Source of the DNA: Pedobacter polysacchareus | Lineage (GTDB): Bacteria; Bacteroidota; Bacteroidia; Sphingobacteriales; Sphingobacteriaceae | Direction of reading: 5' to 3' | DNA length: 64,000 nucleotides | Assembly (NCBI RefSeq): GCF_019802255.1 | Contig: NZ_JAHYSS010000003.1 | Span: forward strand, 496,001 to 560,000 | Shown here: in pieces, positions 24,581-28,471 of the stretch | How the letters are laid out: the number at the start of each line of letters is the position of its first letter | How positions within the stretch are numbered: the stretch's first letter is position 1 | Notes under the pieces: model-generated | What the model was told of the DNA's origin: nothing | The model's database searches: none | Seen by the model: the letters and a program-made list of their open reading frames with translations, nothing else | Position numbers and translations under genes: made by a program

Positions 24581-26257
24581 TTAAAAATATCCATTTACAG
24601 CCACATCCCCATAGTTTAAGGCTACTTCTAACCGTTTAACCACAAAAATATTAGGTGTCCTGGCCACAATGCTCACTTTGTTTTCGCCTTTAACCAGACA
24701 GTTTTTTGGAAGTACATAGGCGATCATTTTCTCCCCTTCCTGCAAGCCATGATTTCTATCATAATCTTCCGGATAATTAGCCTGTACTGCTGTAATTTTT
24801 AAACCATTCACCTCAATTTCCATTTTGGCAGAACGGTCTGTACGAAGAAAAAGGATGCTTTCTTTTGGATAGATTTTATCTATAGGATCTCCAATAAAAA
24901 TAGATGCTGTGCTTTTTTTCCCGACTCCACAAGCCATTGGAAGATCGCTCACCTGTAACACCCCATAAGAATTCGTCACACCATCCGAAGCACAAAAGAC
25001 TTTATTTGCGGTATTCAGTTTTTCGATAGTGCCAAGCTCATTCAGCAAACGTGTGGACCTTGTACGGCAAACCAGGCCGCTGGGATTTAAGGCTTTTTGA
25101 TAATCAACTTTGCCGTAGTTGGCAAAATAAAAGTTAAATAAGTATAAACCATCTCCCCCCTGACCAAGGATGTTTGAAGCCATTCCTTTGAACATTCCAT
25201 CTGAATAAAGTTCTCTCGGTAAATAACCCCCATCATCTATTGATCCATATACAGGGATCCTTTTATTGGATTTCCCAAACAAATCCTGTTTAAACTTTGC
25301 GATAGGAATAGCAGTCTCCCCTCGCCAATGCGCGCCAATAGAAATAAAATCTATGAGGTCTTGCTTTAGCCAGGCTTTTACATCCAATCCTTTGTCCAAA
25401 GCGCCTTCCACCGTAATAGGAACACGTACTGACAGCAAGATTTTTTTCCCCCGAACCTTAGACACCGAATCGACCATCGACTTCACGGTCTTCACAAAAG
25501 AAGTCATTAAATGAGCTTTAGCAGGGCCTTCACCAGCCTTAAACAGCACAATAAAACGCATGAAATCTAAATCAAACCCATCAATCATCTCATATTTCTC
25601 TAACTGCTCGCGGATCAGCGCCAGCTTATGGTCGCGCACCGCTTGATGCGTAAAATCCAATGCCCTCGAACTGTTCATCCCCTGGTGATCCTCTCCTATC
25701 CAATATTGCGGGTTATTAAACCAAAAATCGGGATAGGATACCCTGCAATGTGTGGCAGTGTCCGCGAAATGAAGGTCATTGACCCTAAAGGTGATGAACG
25801 CTTCCATTCCGCGTTGTTTGGCCCGTGTTAAAGAGGCATCGATGATGTCAGTGCCCTCTGCTTCTAAGCTCTTGAAATTTTTAAAATATTGCTTAAATGC
25901 CTTACGCTCAGATTCACTTCTACAATCCAGGGAATCATTCAGGTCGTCCCCAAATGGGCGCTCATATTTGGAACGATAAAAGACAAAATCACTCCCTGTG
26001 CACATCATAAATGTGGTGACTACCTTGCTTTCCGCCACCAGATCAACATAATTATTGATGTCTGCTCTTGTTAAATCTGGTTTTCGATTAAACCACATAT
26101 TCGCCAGCGCGTCGGTACCATCATTATTATGGATGATCCTGAATTTTCGAGGTTTCGGTTTGTTTTCAGCTTGTTCTGCTGAAGACAATACTGCGATTAA
26201 ACTGATGGATAGTAGAAAAAATCCCAGTCTGCTTAATTTATTGATGTTAAATTTCAT
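24581..26257 (-). CDS. Secreted protein resembling a family-10-like TIM-barrel glycosidase (function unknown)
   Basis: The 558-residue protein has an N-terminal hydrophobic signal (residues 7-27) and then a domain with TIM-barrel spacing: MEAFITFRVND, YEMIDGFDLDFMRF, KILLSVRVPI, DFISIGAHW and GGDGLYLFNFYFANYG. The acidic residues in GFDLDFMRF (about residue 225) sit where GHL10-like glycosidases place a catalytic carboxylate. The last 150 residues are beta-rich (IFIGDPIDKIYP, LRTDRSAKMEIEVNGL), like a galactose-binding-type module. It overlaps the MFS gene by 4 bp and lies beside a fucosidase, so a role in glycan breakdown is likely. The exact family is uncertain. Confidence 0.65.
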   Translation of the reverse strand: MKFNINKLSRLGFFLLSISLIAVLSSAEQAENKPKPRKFRIIHNNDGTDALANMWFNRKPDLTRADINNYVDLVAESKVVTTFMMCTGSDFVFYRSKYERPFGDDLNDSLDCRSESERKAFKQYFKNFKSLEAEGTDIIDASLTRAKQRGMEAFITFRVNDLHFADTATHCRVSYPDFWFNNPQYWIGEDHQGMNSSRALDFTHQAVRDHKLALIREQLEKYEMIDGFDLDFMRFIVLFKAGEGPAKAHLMTSFVKTVKSMVDSVSKVRGKKILLSVRVPITVEGALDKGLDVKAWLKQDLIDFISIGAHWRGETAIPIAKFKQDLFGKSNKRIPVYGSIDDGGYLPRELYSDGMFKGMASNILGQGGDGLYLFNFYFANYGKVDYQKALNPSGLVCRTRSTRLLNELGTIEKLNTANKVFCASDGVTNSYGVLQVSDLPMACGVGKKSTASIFIGDPIDKIYPKESILFLRTDRSAKMEIEVNGLKITAVQANYPEDYDRNHGLQEGEKMIAYVLPKNCLVKGENKVSIVARTPNIFVVKRLEVALNYGDVAVNGYF

Positions 26258-27213
26258 TTGCTTAGGTTTAGTTTAATGTGAGGAGTGCTCTCTTTTCCAA
26301 TTTGTTTTTTTCCAGGCCTAACCAAATACAAGGCGATTGCAGCAAGCACAATTAATACGGAAGCAAATTTGAAAATGGTACTTAACTCCATATTTGAATC
26401 CCTCAATGCACCGCCAAAATACAATCCGAAGCCACCCACCAAAGTGCCAAAGAAGTTTAAAATACCATATCCGGTGGCTCTATAGCGATTGTCGACAGTC
26501 ATACTTAGAATCGGCATGGTATTGGTATCCACAAAGGATTTACAGAAGGTATACAGCATAAAGCAGAGTAAAGAAATCGAAAGTAATGGGGAGTAATTAG
26601 CCAGGAAGATGGCCGGTGCAGCAATACATAAACCAATAAAAGGCACATAAATCCTTGCATTGGCATTTTTTCTGCTCCATAAATCCGTTAAAAAACCGCC
26701 CAACAGCACACCTGCAATTGCCGATGTAAAAACATAGCCTGTGGAGTAAATCCCTGCCTGGGTCTGGCTTAGTTGAAAGCGCTCCTGGAAATAGGTAGGC
26801 AGCCAGCCCACAATCAGCCAGGAAACAATGCTGATTAACCCGAAGAATAAAACAATACAAATAAAAGAGAAGTTGCTGAACAGCACGCGTAAGGACTGTA
26901 AGAAATTGACTTTAGGCTCCTGCCTTTCCTCGATTATGGTTTCTTTATCTGGCGCATCTTTAAGGAAAAAGAAGATGATCGAAGCATAGCAGATCCCGAA
27001 TATCCCTAAAATAGTAAAAGCGTAATTCCAGGTATGGTTTTCTGCCAGCCAGCCACCCAAAAAGCCTAAACTTTGTCCGGCCATAATTCCCGCCATATGT
27101 ATTCCAGTTGCTAAAGACCGGGTTGGTCCTTTGTGATAGTCCATAATTAAGGAAAGTGCCGCCGGAATATAACAAGCTTCACTAATCCCCATTAAGGCTC
27201 TGGTCATCAACAA
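26254..27213 (-). CDS. MFS transporter, N-terminally truncated (probable pseudogene)
   Basis: The frame encodes the rear part of a major-facilitator permease of the anion/sugar-acid symporter type: RALMGISEACYIPAALSLIM, then PTRSLATGIHMAGIMAG, a central charged loop (KDAPDKETIIEERQEPK) and the second six-helix half. About 90 residues (helices 1 to 3) that should come before RALMG are missing. Reading upstream in frame gives an unrelated aromatic stretch and a stop (TAA at 27300-27298), and the only nearby starts are TTG at 27213 and ATG at 27207. The gene leads an operon for glycan catabolism, so its 5' loss may have silenced the import step. A cut in the ancestral locus around 27230-27250 is my inference. 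Confidence 0.75.
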   Translation of the reverse strand: MLMTRALMGISEACYIPAALSLIMDYHKGPTRSLATGIHMAGIMAGQSLGFLGGWLAENHTWNYAFTILGIFGICYASIIFFFLKDAPDKETIIEERQEPKVNFLQSLRVLFSNFSFICIVLFFGLISIVSWLIVGWLPTYFQERFQLSQTQAGIYSTGYVFTSAIAGVLLGGFLTDLWSRKNANARIYVPFIGLCIAAPAIFLANYSPLLSISLLCFMLYTFCKSFVDTNTMPILSMTVDNRYRATGYGILNFFGTLVGGFGLYFGGALRDSNMELSTIFKFASVLIVLAAIALYLVRPGKKQIGKESTPHIKLNLSK

Positions 27214-27453: not shown

Positions 27454-27515
27454 TTTGCCTGTTTTTGGTCGAGTATTGTTCGGGAACAGTAGTGCCTTGA
27501 TATAGGGTCCGGAAG

Positions 27516-27589
27516 GGGTTGCTATAGGGTTGCTAAGGGGTTGCTATAGTATCAGGTATCCCAACCCCTTAGCAACCCTATAGCAACCC
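27516..27589. repeat. Perfect 28-bp inverted repeat made of nested 11-12 bp repeats
   Basis: The left arm (27516-27543) and right arm (27562-27589) are exact reverse complements over 28 bp, with an 18-base loop. Each arm is itself made of repeated units of the kind GGGTTGCTATAG / GGGTTGCTAAG, and one more unit follows the right arm up to 27600. No T-run follows on either strand, so a plain intrinsic terminator is unlikely. It may be a dispersed REP-like or MITE-like element. Confidence 0.85.
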
Positions 27590-27795
27590 TATAGCAACCC
27601 AGGTCTTTTCCCAACCACATCCAAAGCGCTTATTCCCTTCCATCCAACCTTCACAAAATTTCATCTATTTACTTGTTATGATCCAGAAAGGGCTCTGTAG
27701 GCTATCATTTGCTCTTGGCAAGATTAACACAAAACAGCCATGAAAACAAAATGCCGTTTTGAAGGTTATGTTGGGTAGACCTACAGAAAAACACT

Positions 27796-27924
27796 ATGGC
27801 TGAAATAGACGTACAACCTAAAAAGAAGAGTCCGACCCTCTGGATCATCGGTATCATCGTAGTGCTGATCCTATTGTATTTCCTATTTAGAGGAGGTAAC
27901 GAGACTGCCCCTGCATTCGGTTAA
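27796..27924 (+). CDS. Small single-helix membrane protein (42 aa)
   Basis: The frame opens with ATG at 27796 and ends with TAA at 27922-27924. A Lys-rich N-terminus (VQPKKKSPT) is followed by one hydrophobic helix (LWIIGIIVVLILLYFLF) and a short tail, so the tail is probably periplasmic by the positive-inside rule. It lies 25 bp before the PRC-barrel gene and is likely cotranscribed. No family is assigned, but similar short proteins are common in Bacteroidota stress loci. Confidence 0.65.
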   Translation: MAEIDVQPKKKSPTLWIIGIIVVLILLYFLFRGGNETAPAFG

Positions 27925-27949: not shown

Positions 27950-28471
27950 ATGGAAACCAACGAACCTCATAAAACTACCTATCTGGAAGAATTAAGTGCT
28001 AGTGATTTTGAAGTTGCCGACAAGCAGCCGGACATCAATGGCTGGGAAATCCTGGACTCCCAGGGCAATGAACTAGGCGAAGTAGAAGACCTGATCTTCG
28101 ACAGCAATGCGAGGAAAGTGCGCTATATCGTAGCCCGCCTGGATCTTGAGGAATTGGAAAACGAAGGACCTGATGACCACCTTGTCCTGATTCCAATCGG
28201 GGTAGTAGATCTGGACGAAGATGAGGAGGAAGTCATTTTACCGGAAGTTTCCGTTGGCTTCCTCGCTACGCTACCCAGGTACACCCCGGGTAAAACCATT
28301 TCTCCGGCAGAAGAACTGGCCCTGCGTTATGCCTTCCTTGGAGAAGATGCGTTGCCCCATGCAGACGCGGTGGTATATGAGACCCACCCGGAAGACTTCT
28401 ATACCCACAAACATTTTGATGATGCCCGATTTAAAAAGCAAAATACCGACCCAAGAGACCAAAACAACTGA
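27950..28471 (+). CDS. PRC-barrel domain protein
   Basis: The 173-residue acidic protein has a PRC-barrel (residues about 28-100: INGWEILDSQGNELGEVEDLIFDSNARKVRYIVARL, then HLVLIPIGVVDLDED). The C-terminal half (YTPGKTISPAEELALRYAFLG) is of unknown role. PRC-barrels are small beta-barrels found in stress and RNA- or photosystem-related proteins, and stand-alone copies are often general-stress proteins. It sits between a single-helix membrane protein and further small proteins. Confidence 0.9.
   Translation: METNEPHKTTYLEELSASDFEVADKQPDINGWEILDSQGNELGEVEDLIFDSNARKVRYIVARLDLEELENEGPDDHLVLIPIGVVDLDEDEEEVILPEVSVGFLATLPRYTPGKTISPAEELALRYAFLGEDALPHADAVVYETHPEDFYTHKHFDDARFKKQNTDPRDQNN

Follow-up and report, generated by a model that had tools for sequence, protein, structure and literature searches.

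A Perfect Hairpin of Pedobacter polysacchareus as One Copy of a Dispersed 155-bp Element Family Built from 11-bp Units

The Locus and Its Hairpin

The window analyzed here, a stretch of 64,000 nucleotides from Pedobacter polysacchareus (own genome of 5.83 Mb, designated G000 below), contains a hairpin lying between an MFS transporter gene (26257-27213, minus strand) and a 42-aa open reading frame (27796-27921, plus strand), which is followed by the gene for a PRC-barrel protein (27950-28468, plus strand). The first-pass annotation had placed this hairpin between a truncated gene and a stress locus. The left-hand gene does lack its N-terminal part, its match to PF07690 starting at profile position 88 of 347, while the supposed stress locus on the right consists of the ORF, without Pfam match, and of the PRC-barrel protein. 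Only the right flank matches in the related genomes (87-89% identity), being conserved in both sister species; the left flank has no match in either and looks rearranged, in line with the truncation of the MFS gene.

The hairpin is a perfect inverted repeat with arms of 28 bp (27516-27543 and 27562-27589) around a loop of 18 bp. A second perfect pairing of 20 bp (27516-27535 with 27581-27600) is formed through an extra unit that follows the right arm and ends at 27600. Both the inverted repeat and the additional unit had been recognized from the letters alone and hold as described. The proposed tandem of 11-12 bp units holds on both sides of the hairpin, where TRF finds periods at 27516-27549 and 27562-27600, with a unit length of 11 bp; the proposed extent, 27516-27600, covers the hairpin but falls short of the element, which spans 27463-27617. 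This inverted repeat is the longest perfect one in the window (loops of 3-100), the next unrelated one having 14 bp. Arms of at least 28 bp are expected about 2e-10 times from base composition, and an 18-base two-unit pattern (up to 3 mismatches) matches five times in the window against 0.12 expected, a number reached in none of 100 shuffles; hence an isolated chance structure is virtually excluded, the more so as the absence of any other copy, which had been named as the outcome pointing to chance, did not occur: the genome has 25 places.

Folding of the window copy is strong both for RNA of either strand (z -7.7 and -8.1) and for DNA (z -9.2), and no terminator-like site, in the sense of a stem followed by a T-run, is found at it. 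Another copy, L023, has a perfect hairpin with a subsequent T-run within about 75 bases to the left of the element start (1486); this hairpin, which includes CTATAGGGTT, is terminator-like and has its unit sequence in common with the element.

A Family of Intergenic 155-bp Elements

The two-unit pattern, taken with up to 2 mismatches, matches the own genome 20 times, its reversed control not at all, and most matches sit within longer palindrome-like structures that have their ends in common. Fifteen copies, that of the window included, were aligned to build a covariance model (CM R1) of 155 positions, which carries mostly sequence information and 18 pairs. Its 48 rows over both strands of G000 were merged by hand into 26 places; one of these (C1:837511, E 0.21), inside a coding ORF, was dropped as chance, leaving 25, of which five are truncated, internally deleted or weak (L206-L210). 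The family is intergenic, save for short mechanical ORFs overlapping L065 and L069, and the model recognizes most copies on either strand. The surmise of a dispersed element is thus confirmed.

The window copy (27463-27617, plus strand, 155 bp) matches the model, to which it contributed, with 149.6 bits and an E value of 7e-34 in its own genome (alignment A1). On the plus strand, it begins with a left outer module (27463-27489) of consensus TAGTGGTCGGG-TAGTGTTCGGG-AAGAG, a locus-specific end. Then come the left perfect arm (27516-27543) with about 2.5 units of 11 bp, the centre or loop (27544-27561), for which variants in the family include TAGTCTCTGCTATCC and TAGTGTTTACTATCC, the right perfect arm (27562-27589), the extra 11-bp unit (27590-27600) and the right outer module (27601-27617) of consensus CAGGTCTCTTCCCGACCA, which has the opposite orientation to the left one. 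Throughout the family, the core is made of TAGGGTT followed by 4 variable bases, repeated directly to the left of a short centre and in reverse complement to the right of it. In each of the five genomes measured, self-similarity is highest at lag 11.

The length is strongly preferred. Among copies of at least 120 bp, exactly 155 bp is found in 11/20 of G000, 20/21 of G114 and 21/24 of G128 (Pedobacter sp. N36a); the outliers of G000 include 122, 144, 166 and 177 bp, which are steps of 11 bp, and also 134, 137, 138 and 154 bp. Pairing varies more. The mean z of RNA folding is -5.1 in G000, -4.8 in G114 and -5.5 in G128, with -2.5 in G142 and -1.1 in G081; native arms fold better than arm-swapped chimeras in 71, 61, 61, 54 and 43% of comparisons, respectively. 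The 4-base cores of the right arm are found in the left arm of the same copy at frequencies of 0.44, 0.29 and 0.27 (G000, G114, G128) and in other copies at 0.22, 0.09 and 0.28. By the folding values, the hairpin is not constant across the five genomes and its pairing is modest outside the G000 clade, which counts against the explanation that we favor below.

Nine of the 26 G000 places (one of them the chance match) lie between divergent genes and only three between convergent ones, and on this ground a general role as terminator or 3'-end element is rejected. The element lies upstream of a co-directional right-hand gene at 19/26 places in G000, a bias that is weaker in G128 (14/24) and G114 (13/21). 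Among 20 neighboring proteins no common function was found.

Conserved Sites and Homogenized Cores

A comparison, flanks included, with G128 (25 places) and G114 (21), two related species, shows that 23 of the 25 places of G000 are occupied in one or both of these genomes, always in the same orientation. The flanks of these common sites are mostly 90-97% identical, some being matched by one flank only. The recent origin that the perfect arms had suggested is therefore not borne out, for the site is occupied in related species. Beyond this clade, in two species at a greater distance, 11 elements examined in G142 and six in G081 follow the same plan, with lengths of 155-156 bp save one of 144, and by their flanking proteins 7/11 and 5/6, respectively, stand at sites in common with the G000 clade. 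Two of the seven G142 sites have the opposite orientation, a point against the favored explanation. No clean empty site was found, both missing sites examined being deletions: at the L064 site G128 keeps a remnant of the left end, and at the L163 site G000 has lost the element together with its flanks. Copies have been lost or internally deleted at several sites.

A function as chromosome-domain marker was tried and rejected. In G114, the central half of the contig, where the terminus lies, holds 6/21 elements (one-sided p 0.04), and the corresponding 4/13 in G092 is meaningless, since GC skew puts the contig start off the origin. Orientation against the replication fork in G114 amounts to 15/21 (p 0.08; hand count, with origin and terminus assigned).

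The elements keep their sites across species, but their contents differ. For full 155-bp copies, the identity between orthologous elements is 0.72 for G000-G114 (8 pairs), 0.73 for G000-G128 (7) and 0.82 for G114-G128 (16), as against 0.71, 0.71 and 0.75 for non-orthologous copies of the same genome pairs. When the ortholog is ranked among all copies of the other genome (full-length copies, 62 directed pairs), its mean percentile is high for the outer modules, at 0.84 and 0.92, and near chance for the stems and loop, at 0.55-0.58. Within G128, cores at different loci are 91-99% identical, while the ends of these copies are unlike one another and for the most part resemble those of the orthologs. 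For example, L155 and L164 have cores of 0.99 identity with ends of 0.70 and 0.57, while L155 and its G114 ortholog have a core of 0.80 with ends of 0.85 and 0.86; a second cluster of five loci has cores of 0.91-0.98. Less clean ends are seen to the left of L164 and to the right of L146 and L161. Cores are homogenized among loci, and ends stay with their locus. Because cores at different loci are so nearly identical, independent fast change alone is insufficient, and from these cores combined with locus-specific ends we read a transfer of cores between loci, as would occur in gene conversion.

Distribution of the Family and of Other 11-bp Arrays

An exact end pattern searched over 84,980 species genomes returned ten loci, eight of which are in Pedobacter sp. 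N36a; the other two, in a Nitrospira and a Rhodospirillaceae MAG, we take as chance. The covariance model matches 16 of 145 genus genomes at E 0.001, strongly in G000, G114 and G128 only, and none of 23 genomes of the same class. The 11-mer pattern is wider: within the genus it has 89 matches in 20/145 genomes, the control having 13 in six genomes (seven of them in G006). A scan of 399 genomes found a match in 36, where single matches are near control level, single matches of the reversed control occurring in similar number by hand count, and only genomes with at least three are informative; these number 16 (six Pedobacter and ten of genus g39, by hand count), a level that no control reaches. 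The unit TAGGGTT-N4 thus recurs in Pedobacter and in g39, a genus of the same family, where some places consist of direct units and form no strong inverted repeat (L253 and L255, with no pairs).

Related arrays of 11 bp with other unit sequences are found in G092, G012, G024, G029, G019 and others, as well as in g39. G092 has 13 places, and the copies measured are perfect palindromes with 29-bp arms around one base, one copy carrying a matched change in both arms. In the same genome, two places combine two different families of 11-bp arrays (L170 and L173) at a distance of about 230 bp. The titles and opening abstract lines of the literature found on Pedobacter and Bacteroidetes repeats contain no description of the 155-bp family.

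The Link with DUF6266

When flanks were compared across unrelated families, one protein recurred: DUF6266 genes lie beside elements in G000, G142, G081, G006, G012, G024 and G029, the instances of the first three being one site in common. DUF6266 is present in 105/145 genus genomes, often in many copies (18 in the own genome). It forms a large uncharacterized family of paralogs in Pedobacter, some genomes having 20 matches or more, and in the own genome a cluster of its genes, L063 (1708-2334, plus strand), L313, L317 and L327, lies beside one element copy. A DUF6266 remnant lies 6 bp from element L056. Periodicity at lag 11 is found upstream of 16/48 DUF6266 genes and downstream of 1/48 (Fisher 7e-5; the threshold of 24 of 44 was set after seeing the data), and two of these 16 regions are elements of the 155-bp family. 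Lag 10 is enriched upstream as well, at 11/30 genus loci, with 1/18 in the own genome. Only the periodicity is enriched, as the strength of inverted repeats is no greater upstream than downstream (p 0.28). DUF6266 is present in all 20 genomes with the 11-mer pattern and in 85/125 without it (p 0.002, on raw counts uncorrected for ancestry), and in 9/9 of those with at least three matches (p 0.06).

The structure model of DUF6266, obtained from two sequences, is poor (mean pLDDT 54); its C-terminal half appears to resemble fibronectin type III folds, and the protein has no match in PDB, PHROG or NCBIfam. It is therefore a correlate rather than an identified enzyme, and its candidacy as such was rejected. 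The literature searched does not mention it. On two short IMG/VR contigs (L331 and L332) a holin-family gene comes after a DUF6266 gene, along with two ORFs that lack a Pfam match and are reminiscent of lysozyme and spanin; a Cas2 gene lies near one of the two.

Origin and Maintenance of the Family

We read the family, about 25 intergenic places per genome with inverted conserved outer modules, a core of 11-bp units and sites common to species, as a REPIN/MITE-like element that is old, passed on vertically and served by a putative cognate enzyme. The window hairpin would be one copy of this dispersed, non-coding Pedobacter family, and we hold this explanation, its scenario of spread and core overwriting included, with moderate confidence. 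In an ancestor, the family would have dispersed as non-autonomous copies with ends recognized by an enzyme, and it would now be inherited vertically. Recombination in the form of gene conversion, guided by homology of the conserved end modules and possibly proceeding through annealing of single-stranded hairpins at the replication fork, would let other copies overwrite the core, and perfect arms such as those of the window could arise from unit-wise slippage and from copying of one arm from the other. Both the mobile ancestry and the recombination at the ends are what we infer from these patterns. Against the explanation stands that the search for a transposase partner, which covered PF01797, found no enzyme for the ends; the lack of target-site duplications and the deletions at the two missing sites count against it too. 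The long-term conservation of sites combined with core turnover would fit a selected function too, which the explanation does not need.

The main rival is a protein-binding array, which we consider possible though rather unlikely. A protein or oligomer would read the 7-bp constant part of each unit along one face of the helix; the elements would be kept for gene regulation or chromosome organization, and the same protein would act upstream of DUF6266 genes. The 11-bp spacing of the families seen, the recurrence of TAGGGTT-N4 in two genera, the sites common to five species and the periodicity upstream of DUF6266 speak for such an array, but neighboring genes lack a common function, copies are lost or deleted at several sites, no binding protein is known, and the partial matching of 4-base cores between arms is not required by DNA binding alone. 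A further, tentative idea is that of Sphingobacteriaceae-wide "undecamer" elements, mobile or formerly so and unrelated to RAYTs, in which cassettes of 11-bp units would be exchanged between fixed sites through conserved end modules; the cognate partner might be linked to the multicopy, uncharacterized DUF6266 genes, upstream of which arrays with an identical rhythm are found.

A multicopy family of structured small RNAs, each element being transcribed and the hairpin being its product, is improbable. The strong hairpin of the window copy on either strand, the preferred length and the conserved ends would suit it, but the hairpin is weak in G142 and G081, the gene contexts have all orientations, and the element has no terminator or sigma-70-like promoter (by a promoter model that does not cover Bacteroidota). 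Membership in an Rfam family was rejected, since no model reaches gathering score in the window or within the elements of six loci, where the matches below it are mostly miRNA hairpin models; the sole match above is a tRNA outside the element.

Mobilization by a RAYT, as in a true REP/REPIN, is very improbable and was rejected. The REPIN-like layout, with conserved inverted ends and a variable pairing core, is indeed present (PMC3116915). The enzyme is missing: the Y1_Tnp model PF01797 has no match in the own genome, where the first-pass annotation had proposed to look for a REP-associated transposase, and matches 5/14 control genomes; within the genus it is found in 0/20 genomes with the 11-mer pattern and 82/125 without, an anti-correlation on raw counts that includes shared ancestry, and in 0/9 with at least three matches. 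GTAG occurs within -5 to +6 of the left end in 19/66 copies, and CGTC or GACG near an end in 8/66. In shape the family resembles a MITE, being short, non-coding and dispersed with terminal inverted repeats. No clean empty site was seen, however, and no boundary offset gives target-site duplications of 5, 6 or 8 bp in more than 2/65 copies, although the insertions are old and their duplications may have decayed. The suggestion of a MITE-like element thus holds for the shape, while membership in REP/REPIN proper fails, given that RAYT or IS200-type transposase, target-site duplication and clean empty site are all missing.

Dispersed bacterial palindromes of such layout are usually explained by RAYTs. 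The Pedobacter family presents a REPIN-like layout in RAYT-free genomes, with site occupancy kept across species and content replaced. If core exchange is real, it offers a tractable bacterial case of concerted evolution among short dispersed repeats, and the link with DUF6266 is a concrete lead on an uncharacterized protein family.

Comparison with Known Systems

Tandem sites of the OmpR/PhoB type are 11-bp direct repeats in which 7 bp are constant and 4 bp variable, as here, but they have few units and stand at promoters; REPINs, in turn, have hundreds of copies, versus about 25 here. The TAACTGA heptamer repeats of Beggiatoaceae, Cyanobacteria and some Bacteroidetes are likewise intergenic short-unit arrays of obscure origin, but they consist of 7-bp direct repeats without gaps, most of them close to start codons, and the part of the text covered describes no opposed blocks or end modules (PMC4679880). 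The TIR repeats of TIRYT transposases are also inverted repeats dispersed in the genome, but they go with a tyrosine transposase of IS200/IS605 type, which the own genome lacks (PMC3733652). REPINs, REP doublets forming a hairpin in Pseudomonas and others, come closer, for they are intergenic, with inverted conserved ends, a variable middle in which length and pairing matter and compensatory changes (PMC3116915); the present family differs by its 11-bp units, its length of about 155 bp and the core exchange between loci, and it lacks both a RAYT and a consistent GTAG tag. The BrickBuilt MITE of Porphyromonas gingivalis, with 19 intergenic copies of 84-991 nt built from 23-nt units and no BLASTn match outside the species, is from Bacteroidota too, and has tandem units between flanking ends (a leader and a tail with small inverted repeats), sites common to strains and long stem-loops (PMC4596501). 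Its 23-nt unit is not that of the Pedobacter family, which is set apart by its unit length of 11 bp, by the arrangement of these units in two opposed blocks, by a near-constant 155 bp and by its presence in several species.
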